A stretch of DNA of 64,000 nt, taken from assembly GCF_000013045.1 (NCBI RefSeq), contig NC_007677.1:2232001-2296000 (forward strand). Reading direction: 5' to 3'. Every line of letters starts with the position of its first letter. The first letter of the stretch is position 1. A program made the translations under genes and the position numbers. This document shows positions 23,532 to 52,316 of the stretch, piece by piece. The notes beneath the pieces were generated by a model. The model had not been told where the DNA came from and did not search any database. It saw nothing but the letters and a program-made list of their open reading frames with translations. The DNA comes from Salinibacter ruber DSM 13855 (GTDB lineage Bacteria > Bacteroidota > Rhodothermia > Rhodothermales > Salinibacteraceae).

Positions 23532-24161
23532 TCAGGATGGGTCGGAAGAGGAGGGCGTGCTCTCGGACTCGCCCCGCCGGAGCGCCACGGCGAGGAGCTG
23601 CTCGATCTGATCGATGTCTTTGTTGCGGACGAGCGGAAGCAGGGCCTCGGAGACGCCTTCGAGCACCTTCAGAAGGTCGATGAGGCTGGTCAGGCGCTGG
23701 TGGAGGGCCCGTTCGGGCTCCGGATGGTCCGCCCCCGACGCGCCGTCCTGGACCAGCAGATCGGCACACTCCTGAAGGCGCGACCGGACGGGATGGACCT
23801 CCCGGCGCTGACGCTCTTCAATGATGCGGGCGGTGATCTGCCATACGTCGGTCTCCGCCCGGTAGTAGTCTTTGCGCGAGCCGGAACGATGCGTTTTGTC
23901 TGCGAGGTTCCAGTCGACGAGCGACCGGAGGTTCATGCTGGCGTTGCCCCGACTCACCTCCAGGCACTCCATGACCTCGTCGGTGCTGAGGGGCCGCCCT
24001 GCGCAGTAGAGCAGCGCGTGAATTCTCGCCATGGTGCGGTTGATCCCCCACGTCGATGCCATCTCCCCCCACAGGGAGACAAACCGGTCGACCGCGACCC
24101 GGGCCTGCGAGCCGCGGTCGAGGTTCAAGAGATCCAGTCCGGAAGGCTCGGAGGATGGCAT
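23532..24161 (-). CDS. GbsR/MarR-type winged-helix transcriptional regulator
   Basis: The product is 209 residues from the ATG at 24161 (MPSSEPSGLDLLNLDRG). The winged helix is in the N-terminal half: WGINRTMARIHALLYCAGR, then LSTDEVMECLEVSRGNASMNL as the recognition helix-turn-helix, and a wing through WNLADKTHRSGSRKDYY. This spacing is the GbsR type within the MarR superfamily, which in Bacillus senses choline and represses glycine-betaine genes. No betaine gene is next to it here. It is divergent from the SAM hydroxide adenosyltransferase gene, with 209 bp between starts, and upstream of the UPF0102 gene. Autoregulation, or control of the divergent neighbour, is plausible but unproven. Confidence 0.85.
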   Translation of the reverse strand: MPSSEPSGLDLLNLDRGSQARVAVDRFVSLWGEMASTWGINRTMARIHALLYCAGRPLSTDEVMECLEVSRGNASMNLRSLVDWNLADKTHRSGSRKDYYRAETDVWQITARIIEERQRREVHPVRSRLQECADLLVQDGASGADHPEPERALHQRLTSLIDLLKVLEGVSEALLPLVRNKDIDQIEQLLAVALRRGESESTPSSSDPS

Positions 24162-24370
24162 GGGGGGACTCACGCTGTTGGCAGCCGGTCTCTTGGGGGA
24201 AGCCCGCCGGGGCGGTAGGCCCAACTCCTAAATCCCTCCGAATTGTTTCTCTCAGGCGGAACGGGCCTACACATCGCGGTCCGCGGTTCGTATGCTCATA
24301 TCCAATCACCAAGGCAGACTGTCTCTGCCGTCGCCTTCCCGGAGCCCTCTTTTCACATCCTTCGAGGTCC

Positions 24371-25225
24371 ATGCCCGCTCCCGCCCCTTCTTCGCCCCCC
24401 ATCGTCACCCTCACGACGGACTTCGGCACGGAGGATGCGTACGTGCCGGCGATGAAGGGAACGATGCTCTCCATCTGCTCGGACGCACGACTCGTGGACG
24501 TAACCCACGAGATCAGCCCCCAGGACGTGATGGAGGCGGCCTTCGTGTTGCAGTCGGCCCGCCCCTACTTTCCGGACGGCGCCGTGCACCTGGTGGTGGT
24601 GGATCCGGGGGTGGGCACCGAGCGGCGCGCCGTGGCCCTGCGCGCCGAGGGGCAGTGGTTTGTGGGGCCCGACAACGGCGTCTTTCCACTCGTGCTGGAC
24701 CAGGCGTCGCCAGACGCCATCGTGGAGCTCGACGATCCGACGTTCTGGCGGGACGACTCGCCAAGCACGACGTTTCACGGCCGCGACATTTTTGCCCCCG
24801 CCGCGGCCCACCTCGCCGACGGCCGGTCCGTGGAGGCCCTCGGCACGTCAATCGACACGCTCGAACCGCTCCGGTGGGCCCAACCGTCGACCGGGGCCCA
24901 GACGGTGCAGGGCTGGGTGGTGCACGTGGATCACTTCGGCAACTGCATCACGAACATCCGGCGCCCGGCAATGGCCGAGGCCGCCGGCCTGGAAAATTCG
25001 ACCCCGCCCCTTGACGCCTTTCCGCCCCTCAAAACCTACGCGGGCAACACCACCCTGCAGGCCCTCCACCCGACGTATGGGGCCGTACCCGAGGGCGACC
25101 CGCTCCTGCTGTTCGGAAGCACGGGCTACCTGGAGATCGCCGCCAACGGGGGGAACGGCGCCGAACTGCTGGACATACGAAAGGGCGATTCCGTAAAAAT
25201 CGTCTTCGAGGAGCCGTCCGAATAG
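24371..25225 (+). CDS. SAM hydroxide adenosyltransferase / SAM-dependent halogenase family (DUF62)
   Basis: The product is 284 residues from the ATG at 24371 (MPAPAPSSPPIVTLTTDFG). It belongs to the family that attacks S-adenosylmethionine at C5' with water (SAM hydrolase, giving adenosine and methionine) or with a halide (chlorinase and fluorinase). The family blocks are visible in order: LTTDFGTEDAYVPAMKG, VVDPGVGTERRAVAL, GPDNGVFPLVL, FHGRDIFAPAAAHLA, and a C-terminal beta domain beginning near VVHVDHFGNCITNI. The frame opens upstream of 24371, but that part lacks family similarity. Most bacterial members use water, and the sequence alone does not decide between water and chloride. It is divergent from a GbsR-type regulator. 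Confidence 0.88.
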   Translation: MPAPAPSSPPIVTLTTDFGTEDAYVPAMKGTMLSICSDARLVDVTHEISPQDVMEAAFVLQSARPYFPDGAVHLVVVDPGVGTERRAVALRAEGQWFVGPDNGVFPLVLDQASPDAIVELDDPTFWRDDSPSTTFHGRDIFAPAAAHLADGRSVEALGTSIDTLEPLRWAQPSTGAQTVQGWVVHVDHFGNCITNIRRPAMAEAAGLENSTPPLDAFPPLKTYAGNTTLQALHPTYGAVPEGDPLLLFGSTGYLEIAANGGNGAELLDIRKGDSVKIVFEEPSE

Positions 25226-25270
25226 TCCTGGTCCTCGGCCGCGTCCTCAACGCTCCAGGTGCTCTTTCCT

Positions 25271-26542
25271 ATGGCCCTCGCGTCCACGTCGCCCGACCCC
25301 CCCTCTCCCCTGAAGAACCTGGATGCCCTCTACCCGCTCGCCTGCACACTGGTGGGCGACGAGGCCGCCCCCTCCCTCCTCGTCCGGGTGTACGAACGGG
25401 TGGCCGATGCCCCCCCGAACGAACGCCCCGAGGCCCCGGAGGACTGGCTCGACCTGCTCCTCCGGGAGGCCCCGGAGCAGGGACAAGCGCCAAGCGACCC
25501 GGACGCCCCCGACGCCTCTTCCACTCCTGATGCGGGCTCCCTTCGACGCGATACCGCGGAGCGCCTCGCCCGCAACACCCTGCCCGTTGCTTTCGCAACC
25601 TGCTCGACCGCGGAGCGATTTGTTCTCGCCCTCAGCGCGTCCCGACTGTCTGAGGCGCCCCAACCTGCCCGGCTTGCCGACCTCTTCGAAGCCCCCCTTC
25701 CATCCTCTCCCTCCGCACTGTTGCGGGAGAAACTTCGGGCGGTACTGTCGGCCCCCGAGGCCGACCTGATCGACGAGACCCTCTCCGACACGGAGCTCCA
25801 CGGGGTGCTGCGCGACGTGCTCCGGGATCGATTCGCCCCGGTGCCCAGCTCGCTCCGCGCCCGCCTCCGAGCCGTCCGGCGGTCGTCTTCTCCCGCGGCG
25901 GGCACGAACGAGGAGGACGAGAAGGATCCCGAGGGATCTGCGTCGGGCGACACGTCGGGCGGCCTGCTCGACCGGCTTCCGTCACGCCCGAAGCCCCGCA
26001 CTCTGCTGTTCGTCCTGCTGCTGGGGGGCCTCGTCCTGGGGGGCGGGCTCGGGGTGTCGTACCTGACCGGGTCCTCGTCGTCGACCTCCGCCCCAAGCCC
26101 CCCCACCCTTACGGCCTTCTCCGCCGAGCAGGCCGGGGCCGTAACGACCGAGCGCGCGACCACGCAACCGGCCGAGGCGGAGGCCTATCTGGACTCGACG
26201 TGGGGCCGCCGGGTGCGGCTGCCATCCATCGAGAGCGCACAGCTGCGGGGCGTCGGGCGGCTCCGGGCGGCCGGCAATACCGAGATCCCCGTCGTGCTAT
26301 ACACCGGCGAGGAGGAGGCCCGCATCGCGGCGTTTGTGTACAGCTACGCCCTCATCGACCGGCTCGACGACACCGCCACCCTGAACACGCAGGTCCGATC
26401 TCAACTGGCCCAGCGCAACCGGCTCGTCGCCGACGGGCAGGCCGCCGGGCCCGGCCTCTTGTGGCGCAACCGGGCCAACATCTTTGTCGTCGTCTCCCCC
26501 TCTCTGTCCCCCGACGCACTCCGGGCACGAGTGCAGCCGTAG
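25271..26542 (+). CDS. Membrane protein with sigma-70-like N-terminus (hypothetical)
   Basis: No named family is recognised. The product is 423 residues from the ATG at 25271. The N-terminal part resembles a degenerate ECF sigma factor. LDALYPLACTLVGDEAAP at about 17-34 and VRVYERVADAP behind it read like sigma region 2, and ERFVLALSASRLSEAPQPAR at 115-134 like the start of region 4. A Ser/Asp/Glu-rich linker, one membrane helix (about 243-264) and a roughly 155-residue extracytoplasmic domain with no motif I know then follow. The layout of cytoplasmic regulator, single helix and outer sensor is that of anti-sigma factors. The gene ends only 3 bp before the convergent histidine kinase stop. 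The sigma resemblance is my reading of patterns and could be chance. Confidence 0.6.
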   Translation: MALASTSPDPPSPLKNLDALYPLACTLVGDEAAPSLLVRVYERVADAPPNERPEAPEDWLDLLLREAPEQGQAPSDPDAPDASSTPDAGSLRRDTAERLARNTLPVAFATCSTAERFVLALSASRLSEAPQPARLADLFEAPLPSSPSALLREKLRAVLSAPEADLIDETLSDTELHGVLRDVLRDRFAPVPSSLRARLRAVRRSSSPAAGTNEEDEKDPEGSASGDTSGGLLDRLPSRPKPRTLLFVLLLGGLVLGGGLGVSYLTGSSSSTSAPSPPTLTAFSAEQAGAVTTERATTQPAEAEAYLDSTWGRRVRLPSIESAQLRGVGRLRAAGNTEIPVVLYTGEEEARIAAFVYSYALIDRLDDTATLNTQVRSQLAQRNRLVADGQAAGPGLLWRNRANIFVVVSPSLSPDALRARVQP

Positions 26543-26545
26543 GGA

Positions 26546-27946
26546 CTACTCCGCCCTCGCCGCCGGAATCTCGATGCGGAAGGTCGACCCCTCTCCGACC
26601 GTCGACGACACGAGCTCGAGGCGTCCGCCGTGGTAGCTCTCGATCACGCGACGGGCAAGGCTCAGGCCGAGTCCCCAGCCGCGTTTCTTGGTGCTGTAGC
26701 CCGGCCGGAAAATGTTATTCCACTGCTGCCCCTCGATTCCGCGCCCGGTATCCTCGACCTCGATGAAGACCTGCCCCTCTTCCTTCCAGGCCGTCACCGT
26801 GATGCGGCCCTCCTCGTCCTCGATCGCGTCGAGGGCGTTTTTGAGAAGGTTCTCGAGCACCCACGCGAACAGCTCCTCATTCGCCTCGGCGTGGAGCTGC
26901 TCGGGCAGGTCCGCGGCCAGGGCAATGGACTGGCCCTGCTGCGGGATGCGCCGGCGGAGGTAGCGCGCCGTCTGCTCGATGATTGGCACCAAGTTACAGC
27001 GCTCCAGCTTCGGCTGTGAACCGATGTCCGAGAACCGATCCGCCACGCGCTGCAGCCGCTCCACGTCGTTCTCGATCTCCGTCAGGGCCCGCTCGCGCTT
27101 GTCCGCCGCCAGGTCGGGCGTGCGTAGCATCTGAATCCAGCCCATGAGGCTCGACAGGGGCGTCCCGAGCTGGTGGGCCGCCTCCCGGGCCATTCCCATC
27201 CAGAGGCTGCTCTGCTCGCTGCGGCGGATGTAGGAGAACCCGAAGTAGCCCACCATCACGAACAGCCCGACGAACACCAGCTGCACCCACGGAAACACGC
27301 GGAGCTCCGTAATGAGGGCCGACTCGTCGTAAAACACGTACTGGGTGAGCCGGTCCGACGATGCGCCGGGGTCCTGCCCTGGCGTCTCGGACAGATCGAT
27401 CCGAACCGGGATCGGCTCGAAGGCCGACCGCATGTCGTCCAGTTCGTCCCGCAGCTCTTGCCGCACCCCCGCGGCGTCGCCCATGGCGGGCACCGCAGCG
27501 GTGTCCGGCACCCCCACGTTCTGCCAGCTCAGCGGCCGGCGGCGCGTCGAGTCGGTGATGATGGCCGGGACCTCGAACTGATCCGGCTGCAGGATTTCGT
27601 TTAGGATGAAGTTAAACTCCCGTGTGGGCGGCATGGCCTGGGCCCAGTCGACCGCCTCCTGCAGGGCGGCCACCCGTTCGGCGGAGAGGGTGTCGCCGGC
27701 GGGACGGGCCTCCAAGGCCTGCAGAAGCGAGTCGAGCCGACGGAACTCCTCCCGATGCGGGTTCGACGCCTGCTGGGTCTGCACGACCTGCTCCAGCGCG
27801 TCGGCCCAGAGCTGGATGACCGCCTGCTCACGCTCCTGCAACCGATCGACGAGCCGCTGGGTGTACCAGAGCGACGCCAGGGCTATGCCGACGGCAAAGA
27901 CGATGAGGCCGAGCTTGAGCTGGACCGACCACCGATAGGCGTCCAT
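26546..27946 (-). CDS. Sensor histidine kinase
   Basis: This 466-residue inner-membrane kinase has two membrane helices (about residues 10-28 and 220-240) around a periplasmic sensor region. The H box is MAREAAHQLGTPLSSLMGWI, the N box NLLKNALDAIEDE, the G1 box VEDTGRGIE, and the G2 region GWGLGLSLARRVIESYHGG. The phospho-acceptor is the His in AAHQLGTPL. No HAMP or receiver domain is visible. The same H-box wording is common in orphan kinases of Bacteroidota. It lies 90 bp downstream of purA on the same strand. No response regulator is in the window, so its partner is unknown. Confidence 0.93.
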   Translation of the reverse strand: MDAYRWSVQLKLGLIVFAVGIALASLWYTQRLVDRLQEREQAVIQLWADALEQVVQTQQASNPHREEFRRLDSLLQALEARPAGDTLSAERVAALQEAVDWAQAMPPTREFNFILNEILQPDQFEVPAIITDSTRRRPLSWQNVGVPDTAAVPAMGDAAGVRQELRDELDDMRSAFEPIPVRIDLSETPGQDPGASSDRLTQYVFYDESALITELRVFPWVQLVFVGLFVMVGYFGFSYIRRSEQSSLWMGMAREAAHQLGTPLSSLMGWIQMLRTPDLAADKRERALTEIENDVERLQRVADRFSDIGSQPKLERCNLVPIIEQTARYLRRRIPQQGQSIALAADLPEQLHAEANEELFAWVLENLLKNALDAIEDEEGRITVTAWKEEGQVFIEVEDTGRGIEGQQWNNIFRPGYSTKKRGWGLGLSLARRVIESYHGGRLELVSSTVGEGSTFRIEIPAARAE

Positions 27947-50873: not shown

Positions 50874-52316
50874 CTACAGCCGTAGAATGTCGTTAAAGAT
50901 GAGGAACGCCATGAACCCAATCAGCAAAATCATCCCCACCTGCTGGGCCACGAGCCGCACCCGCACGGAGGGGCGGCGGCGCGTGACCGCCTCGTAGAGC
51001 AGGAACAACAGCTGCCCGCCGTCCAGCGCCGGGATGGGGAGGATGTTCATGATGGCCAGCGTGATCGAGAGCGCCGCGATGAGCCGCCAGTACGCAGTGG
51101 CCCCCGCCGCCGCTGCCTCGCTGGTCACGTCCGCGATCATCACCGGCCCACCGAGGCTGTCGGTCAGGCTGTCGCGCCCCTCGGCAATCCGCTTCAGGGT
51201 AACGACGATGTTGCGGCCGTAGGTCCAGGTGTCCACGGCCCCTGCCTTCAGCGCGGCCAGGGGGCCGTACGTCACGGTCCGGATCCCAAACTCGTCGAAC
51301 AGGGCCTGCCGCGTCACCGAGCTCGCCCTGGGACTCCGAACCCCGAGGAGGTACCGCTCCCGCTTCGAATCGTAGCGGGCGGCGACCGAGTCCGCAAACA
51401 CGACGCCTTGACTGGTGCGCCGAACGACTCGTGGCGACCGCGACCGGTCCGACTCCCCAACGAGGGAGTCTGGACGAAACCACCGCATCGCCACCCGCGC
51501 CCCCTCTGCCTGCTGCAGACGTGCACTCATTTCCCGCCAGAACCGCACCGTATCGCTCTGGAGGGCATAGATCCGGTCTCCCGTCTGCAGCCCCACCGAG
51601 TCGGCCGGGCTGCCGGCCTCCACGGCCCCAATGAGCGCAGGCTGAAACCCGAGCCCAAAGCCCTGCTCGTTGCTTCGGGCGCGGCTCAACCGCGAGATGA
51701 AGTTGGGGGGGCCGGTGATGGTCTGTCGCTCTCCGTCCCGGACGACGGTGATGGTCAGCGTGTCCGCCGCAATGAGCGACGACGGCTCCACCTGCCGGAA
51801 GCGCTCAAAATCGCTGCCGTTCACCCGGACGATGCGGTCCCCCGTTCGCAGTCCCAAATCGTGGGCGACCGATCCCTCTTCCACGTACACCTGCTCCACG
51901 TTCTCCGCGGGGATGTAGGTATCGCCCTCGCTCCAGCTTAGCCCACCGAAGATCACGATGGCCAGGATGGCGTTGAATATCACCCCAGCACTGATCACAA
52001 TGATGCGCTGCCAGACGGGCTTTCCCCGAAACTCCCACGGCTCGGGGTCGGTCTCCACGTGGTCGGTGTCGAGGCTCTCGTCGATCATGCCGCTGATTTT
52101 CACGTAGCCGCCCAGCGGCGTGGCCCCCACTGCGTACTCGGTGTCTCCGTACGTCCGCCCGAACAGCGTCGGCGGAAACCCGATCGAGAAGCGCTCGACC
52201 CGCATGTCGAAGTACTTGGCCGTCAGGAAGTGGCCCAGCTCGTGGACGAACACCAGGATGGTGAGTGCGAGGAGCACCCAGAGGGTGGACGTGAGAACGC
52301 TGACTACAAGCTCCAT
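50874..52316 (-). CDS. rseP: Site-2 protease RseP-like (M50 zinc metalloprotease)
   Basis: This 480-residue inner-membrane protease has the zinc motif HELGHFLTAKYF in the first helix and the second metal ligand region near PALDGGQL (about residue 424) in the third. Two PDZ-like domains lie between them (EEGSVAHDLGLRTGDRIV and EAGSPADSVGLQTGDRIY). Such enzymes cut membrane helices, for example of anti-sigma factors, to release sigma factors during envelope stress. Length is a little over E. coli RseP (450). It is preceded by dxr and followed by uppS on the same strand. No RseA/RpoE pair is in the window. Confidence 0.93.
   Translation of the reverse strand: MELVVSVLTSTLWVLLALTILVFVHELGHFLTAKYFDMRVERFSIGFPPTLFGRTYGDTEYAVGATPLGGYVKISGMIDESLDTDHVETDPEPWEFRGKPVWQRIIVISAGVIFNAILAIVIFGGLSWSEGDTYIPAENVEQVYVEEGSVAHDLGLRTGDRIVRVNGSDFERFRQVEPSSLIAADTLTITVVRDGERQTITGPPNFISRLSRARSNEQGFGLGFQPALIGAVEAGSPADSVGLQTGDRIYALQSDTVRFWREMSARLQQAEGARVAMRWFRPDSLVGESDRSRSPRVVRRTSQGVVFADSVAARYDSKRERYLLGVRSPRASSVTRQALFDEFGIRTVTYGPLAALKAGAVDTWTYGRNIVVTLKRIAEGRDSLTDSLGGPVMIADVTSEAAAAGATAYWRLIAALSITLAIMNILPIPALDGGQLLFLLYEAVTRRRPSVRVRLVAQQVGMILLIGFMAFLIFNDILRL

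Follow-up and report, generated by a model that had tools for sequence, protein, structure and literature searches.

Introduction

Chains in which an ECF sigma factor is fused to a membrane anti-sigma factor are described, according to PMC8999054, for the groups ECF48, ECF52 and ECF53, for some members of ECF36 and for IutY (ECF243), the last being switched on by Prc and RseP; a further fused sigma factor, SCO4117, is treated in PMC5826349. The sigma scaffold has another known fate in PhyR, whose sigma-like domain, in the account of PMC8103513, has kept the ECF structure with degenerated polymerase and promoter regions, and which titrates the anti-sigma factor NepR (PMC8103513, PMC8999054). 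As to how sigma factors and their inhibitors meet, the coevolution work reported in PMC7406223 places helix 4 of the anti-sigma factor against sigma region 2.2.

Here we analyse a stretch of 64,000 nucleotides (hereafter the window; contig NC_007677.1, positions 2,232,001 to 2,296,000) from the 3.59 Mb genome of Salinibacter ruber DSM 13855, one gene of which, judging from sequence profiles, appears to encode a degenerate fusion of an ECF sigma factor with a membrane anti-sigma factor in a single chain. Fusions (ECF52, IutY) and mimics (PhyR) are each known, and their combination appears to be new: a literature search of open-licence papers returned no description of a degenerate membrane-bound sigma mimic in the order (Rhodothermales) and no titles on an anti-sigma system in Salinibacter and its relatives. 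A sequence-only reading of the locus had suggested a single-chain regulator, sigma-like or anti-sigma-like and tethered to the membrane; this interpretation is supported, since profiles and hhalign comparisons speak for both halves.

The protein resembles ECF52, ECF53, ECF48 and IutY, as far as the cited sources describe them, in that one chain carries a sigma domain, an anti-sigma-derived part, a membrane helix and an outer domain; sigma and membrane anti-sigma are thus joined here as in the fused ECF groups, in degenerate form in both halves. It differs from them in that the sigma hallmarks are lost in its family, whereas their sigma half is functional or presumed to be, and also in its RseB/DUF4367-like outer domain and the lack of a zinc-finger bundle. 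As in PhyR (PF22029/PF22233; PDB 2lfw), on the description cited above, the ECF fold is retained and the polymerase and promoter contacts are degenerate; the likeness goes as far as one relative (L029) that exceeds the cut-offs of PF22029 and PF22233, the window copy itself having no match. Unlike PhyR, the protein is membrane-bound rather than soluble, has a membrane helix and an outer domain where no receiver domain was found (Pfam, window protein), is of probable SigR/SigH-type origin and comes from a genome in which no NepR was found. SigR/SigH (TIGR02947) and RsrA (TIGR03988) are matched, below their curated cut-offs, by a sigma and an anti-sigma factor of outgroup lineages; unlike in that pair, the outgroup anti-sigma factor is membrane-bound and has an outer domain, and within the order the two have become one degenerate chain. 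Finally, the outer domain may resemble the C-terminal domain of RseB/MucB (at a Z under 8, which is not proof) and DUF4367, the window protein as such having no Pfam match.

Results

The gene and the parts of the chain it encodes are as follows.

25271..26542, plus strand: whole gene, one-chain sigma-like/anti-sigma-like membrane protein, 423 residues, ATG start
25307..25480, plus strand: sigma region 2-like part, residues 13-70 (helices 13-28, 33-46 and 56-70)
25535..25744, plus strand: sigma region 4-like part, residues 89-158
25751..25888, plus strand: helices after region 4 (residues 161-170, 173-188 and 193-206)
25895..25996, plus strand: Ser/Glu/Asp-rich linker, fast-evolving, mostly of low pLDDT
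25997..26062, plus strand: single membrane helix, residues 243-264, from sequence and model
26108..26533, plus strand: outer alpha/beta domain, residues 280-421

An alternative GTG start at 25259 would add 4 residues at the N-terminus. The full-length model, with a mean pLDDT of 81.5, places a helix at residues 243-257, inside the hydrophobic stretch 243-264 where a single membrane helix had been read from the sequence, and a low-confidence segment (257-271) after it; the N-terminus is probably inside the cell, since basic residues flank the helix on its N side. The outer domain that had been expected beyond the helix is there, at about residues 280-421, with mean pLDDT values of 86-98 per block from residue 281 onward. 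Searched alone, the window protein matched 0 Pfam families at E ≤ 10 and nothing relevant among the NCBIfam models, and family-level profiles were therefore needed.

Homologues were detected by sequence in 82 of the 114 genomes of the order (E ≤ 0.01), and a single full-length chain in 61 of the 114, as counted by hand from a search of 244 genomes of the class with a family profile (full-length meaning one open frame with a model start ≤ 12 and an end ≥ 399 of 412). The link between helix and N-terminus, which the earlier reading had singled out as a check, thus holds in these 61 genomes and breaks in some families, where the sigma-like part is absent (see below). A contig search for related loci gave one close relative only, in Salinibacter altiplanensis. 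From the 82 matching genomes, 70 were fetched and 12 left out (G009, G027, G051, G068, G069, G079, G084, G085, G087, G099, G102 and G103). Our alignment A1 holds 46 hand-chosen members, to which the N-terminal part of L040 was later added (47 members); it omits near-duplicates (L001, L009, L014, L017, L026, L032, L036, L050), truncated or frameshifted copies (L005, L034, L040, L062, L063) and the 13 loci of families f9, f12 and f15 that have no sigma-like part. In L005 a C run that differs in length by one base puts the two halves into separate frames, and in L040 the frame changes across the C-rich linker; both splits are taken as sequencing errors or strain mutations, not as programmed frameshifting.

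The N-terminal half is sigma-derived, as judged at the level of the family. Profile A1 retrieved, among PDB sequences, SigE (1.1e-11), SigH (4.4e-11), SigL (2.9e-9) and the sigma-like domain of PhyR (5.5e-6), the best rows covering profile positions of about 7-160, and hhalign aligned residues 1-172 with nine ECF factors of the same genome (probability 97.3, E 1.9e-11). The resemblance of the aligned sequences to ECF regions 2 and 4 is therefore significant for the family, and the region 2 plus region 4 scaffold of an ECF sigma factor is present by both methods. At E ≤ 1, Sigma70_r4_2 was found in 12 and sigma70-ECF in 15 of the 46 aligned members. When ten members were scanned singly, L029 exceeded the Pfam cut-offs for PhyR_sigma2, Sigma70_r4_2 and PhyR_sigma-like and L040 the one for Sigma70_r4_2; for the N-terminal part of L029 the best PDB match was the PhyR sigma-like domain (1.6e-6), with SigE next (1.2e-5). 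The region 2 likeness proposed at about residues 17-47 is real (residues 13-46, followed by another helix at 56-70), and so is that to region 4, although it spans about residues 89-158 and not just 115-134 as first proposed. In the window copy the helix-turn-helix is strongly diverged and mostly lost; it is clearer in L040, L029 and L033.

Structure comparison adds modest evidence. The AlphaFold model of residues 1-208 (pLDDT 85.5, pTM 0.78) has as its best VIA row the ECF sigma factor CnrH, from a complex with its anti-sigma factor CnrY (Z 5.7, rmsd 4.4, 125 of 154 residues), the sole row with Z of 5 or more among 767 chains aligned; in helical proteins, a Z below about 13 may reflect a common arrangement. 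Residues 8-163 of the full model were aligned to the ECF sigma factor AlgU with Z 6.0 (136 residues, rmsd 17.3). The fold unrelated to sigma or anti-sigma domains that would have spoken against the earlier reading was not seen; at the same time, Foldseek with the N-domain model gave nothing at E ≤ 0.001 and no sigma factor among the best 50 matches listed, and the sigma claim is therefore carried by the sequence profiles.

That both sigma regions are eroded, as the sequence-only reading had it, is borne out by the residues usually conserved in ECF factors. We compared the 47 members with 12 sigma factors, 9 from the same genome and 3 from the outgroup, at positions whose region labels (2.2, 2.3/2.4) are those we assume to apply and which presumably contact polymerase and promoter. 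The Asp of region 2.2 is kept in 4 of 47 members (11 of 12 ECFs), the Gln of region 2.2 in 4 (12 of 12), the Asn of region 2.3/2.4 in 0 (10 of 12) and an Arg further along in 14 (11 of 12); in region 4 the counts are 9 for Glu (11 of 12), 8 for Arg (11 of 12) and 0 for Lys (8 of 12). Asp/Glu, Gln and Asn occur together in 0/47 members, as against 10/12 ECFs, and 36 members have none of the three; in the window copy the Asp, Gln and Asn are all substituted. The stretch of regions 2.3-2.4 is also shorter, with a mean of about 41 residues vs 52. Scaffold residues are retained (Ala 43/47, Leu 42/47, Leu 38/47). The net charge of the region 4-like part, considered as a sign of lost DNA binding, showed no clear difference.

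The sigma-like part evolves with dN/dS of 0.10-0.33 (estimate finite in 6 of 7 pairs), a value that argues for purifying selection and against free decay. The outer domain gave 0.03-0.29 (7 of 7 pairs, some near saturation) and the linker, the Ser/Glu segment of the earlier reading, is real and the fastest-evolving part tested (0.57-0.95, finite in 4 of 7 pairs). On this pattern of substitutions, the domain looks like a retained sigma mimic, not a working sigma factor.

The C-terminal half leads to anti-sigma factors. By hhalign, residues 159-423 align with ten outgroup proteins (L120-L129) with a probability of 99.7 and E 9.4e-26, which makes the membrane helix and outer domain members of the same family as the outgroup membrane anti-sigma factors; by these alignments, the linker, the helix and the outer domain share a common origin with the membrane anti-sigma factors found in other lineages. 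The alignment starts at about residue 177, at the end of the outgroup anti-sigma domain, and the zinc-finger bundle of the outgroup proteins is missing from the window protein, in which a class I anti-sigma domain (three-helix bundle plus helix 4) was accordingly not found. Because segment 159-208 alone was not significant against the outgroup anti-sigma domains (probability 4.3), the claim of an anti-sigma remnant rests on the longer alignment. At E ≤ 1, the anti-sigma model NF052375 found 4 of the 46 members, the best match having E 2.8e-6.

Of 296 genomes from the phylum, 36 matched a profile of the outer domain; 14 of these lie outside the order, and there the open frames are of about 284-335 residues. 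Foldseek aligned residues 305-423 with the C-terminal domain of RseB (residues 218-311) at E 0.027; VIA gave Z 6.7 for RseB (rmsd 3.6 over 91 residues), a range (under 8) in which a common arrangement can be the cause, and 6.0 for MucB, followed, another MucB entry aside, by unrelated rows at 4.6 and below. Foldseek with the full model returned 0 matches at E ≤ 0.001, and when PDB sequences were searched with the outer-domain profile, the best match (0.34) was not significant. The predicted RseB-like fold is thus a lead, which fits the weak DUF4367 match (E 0.0083) of the outgroup member L137, the relative from genome G357. A second copy of the outer domain was sought in the same genome and none was convincing (next match E 0.13).

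Where the two halves come from is suggested by the outgroup. In genomes G179 and G128, outer-domain proteins carry zf-HC2 (2.3e-12 and 6.2e-9, in loci L130 and L131) and a membrane helix, and their genes adjoin or slightly overlap an intact ECF sigma gene; in G357, of another class, a sigma gene is followed by a similar protein with weak matches to RseA_N (0.016) and DUF4367. A sigma gene adjoins the outer-domain anti-sigma gene in 3 of 7 outgroup loci and is absent from that position in the other four. We ranked the sigma factors of the S. ruber genome and of G357, G179 and G128 against the family's sigma-like profile, as a stand-in for a tree of that domain, choosing these three outgroup genomes since sigma and outer-domain genes adjoin there. 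The ranking took in 30 of 34 sigma places (the remaining 4 had no locus). The top scorer of each of the three genomes was the sigma factor beside the outer-domain gene (62.8, 61.2 and 52.5 bits); the next best of any genome scored 47.1 bits and the best of the S. ruber genome 42.2. G179 and G128 being one genus, these are two independent cases, not three. The sigma copies of G128 and G357, which belong to two different classes, share 54% identity (217 bits).

The outgroup sigma factor (L131) has SigH_actino (TIGR02947) as its best match, at 2.4e-57, and the outgroup anti-sigma factor matches NF052375 (7.6e-12) and then RsrA (TIGR03988, 3.5e-9), all below the curated cut-offs. No close orthologue of the outgroup sigma factor was found in the 114 genomes of the order at E ≤ 1e-20 (at most 88.9 bits, 31-37% identity, less than the G128 and G357 copies share across classes), nor any match in the S. 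ruber genome at that threshold. Since the adjoining sigma factor ranks first, descent from a SigR/RsrA-like pair is probable: on these comparisons the gene very probably descends from an operon of a SigR/SigH-type ECF sigma factor and a membrane anti-sigma factor, their fusion dating to the order's radiation or earlier. Fusion of the pair first, then degeneration of the sigma function, would be the simplest account.

The surroundings of the gene include the following.

23532-24224, minus strand: MarR-like regulator, transcribed divergently from the DUF62 gene (PF12802 slightly below the cut-off)
24371..25225, plus strand: SAM hydroxide adenosyltransferase (DUF62), upstream and co-directional (Pfam)
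26546..27946, minus strand: sensor histidine kinase, convergent (Pfam)
50874-52316, minus strand: RseP-type protease (Peptidase_M50, 6e-62, with PDZ)

In 40 loci of the order (L033-L072, read by script), the DUF62 gene lies beside the family gene in 38, the two exceptions being cut off where the contig ends. The fetched piece includes a histidine kinase homologue in 36 loci, in 34 of which we read it as the immediate neighbour, and a MarR-like gene in 16. No DUF62 gene was found in seven loci outside the order. The RseP-type protease noted earlier in the window is indeed encoded there; its neighbours, read by eye, are what we take to be the usual uppS/dxr/bamA neighbourhood, and it is therefore probably a housekeeping copy.

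The loci that have the membrane helix and outer domain and no sigma-like part belong to f15 (4), f9 (3) and f12 (6) (L024, L031, L037, L039, L041, L042, L043, L046, L048, L049, L060, L066 and L067); a short or proline-rich tail, long and proline-rich in f9, precedes the helix. The absence does not track zf-HC2 proteins (f12 9/9 genomes, f9 2/3, f15 none). Family f14 has, at the same gene position and with the same neighbours, a protein of about 320 residues (L135:1032-1997, L136:4808-5770) whose N-terminus shows, by eye, a short helix-turn-helix-like stretch that gave no match to such a family.

Discussion

Selection has retained a sigma scaffold here that lacks the polymerase and promoter hallmarks, as in PhyR, and a membrane-held mimic is therefore favoured. 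We tentatively propose a whole chain of steps, with a confidence that stops somewhat short of even. At rest, the sigma-like domain would be held against the chain's own anti-sigma-derived helices. The RseB/DUF4367-like outer domain would sense a condition of the envelope, upon which the sigma-like domain would be exposed or cut loose; in that state it could bind a sigma-binding protein, most simply a candidate anti-sigma factor encoded elsewhere in the genome, and titration of the latter would release a genuine ECF sigma factor, in the manner of PhyR in Alphaproteobacteria. The data suggest that the switching half is now a decoy or a relay for signals from outside the cell. Candidate partners in the S. 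ruber genome are seven weak matches to NF052375, four of them just downstream of ECF genes and none over the cut-off; the genome has no NepR (best E 0.87, below the cut-off) and no zf-HC2 match at E ≤ 0.001. The likeness to PhyR is probably convergent, because the family profile is nearer to SigE/SigH than to PhyR. Autoinhibition by the chain's own helices is what we infer by analogy with the placement of helix 4 against region 2.2; its fold basis is the predicted match to CnrH, at a Z (5.7) below what is convincing for helical proteins. That the operon, fused in the order's radiation or earlier, became a PhyR-like partner switch, which senses the envelope directly through its RseB-like outer domain and frees genuine sigma factors by binding their anti-sigma factors, is a more doubtful proposition.

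Could the helix and outer domain be the working part, possibly serving the histidine kinase or DUF62, with the sigma-like domain only structural or dimerising? Such a role would fit the constancy of the neighbours (DUF62 in 38/40 loci, the kinase in 36/40) and the f9, f12 and f15 loci, from which it follows that the core role may not need the sigma-like part. The sigma-like domain is nevertheless constrained about as strongly as the outer domain, which argues for a separate function in the lineages that carry it, and we consider this explanation unlikely. Improbable, too, is a functional ECF fusion of the ECF52/ECF53 or IutY type, whose N-domain, set free through regulated intramembrane proteolysis by an RseP-type protease, would direct RNA polymerase through unusual contact residues: the domain order is like that of the fused groups as given in PMC8999054, an RseP-type protease gene lies within the window and in L040 and L029 region 4 scores at or above its Pfam cut-off, but the three hallmarks never occur together in the family and are all missing in 36 members, where 10 of 12 ECFs have all three, the region 2.3-2.4 stretch is some 41 residues long vs 52, and the window copy has lost most of its helix-turn-helix. 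An ordinary membrane-bound one-component transcription regulator that binds DNA through the region 4-like part, to which the f14 proteins with their helix-turn-helix-like N-terminus and same neighbours might lend some colour, is the least likely of all, the region 4.2 hallmarks being mostly gone (Glu 9/47, Arg 8/47, Lys 0/47).

If the membrane-held mimic is confirmed, it would be a second mimic, bound to the membrane and made from a sigma factor together with its own inhibitor, and would show how such mimics evolve. It would also provide a testable envelope input for Salinibacter and its relatives, and tests could draw on a natural series made up of the two-gene outgroup pair, the fused chain and those lineages that have no sigma-like part.
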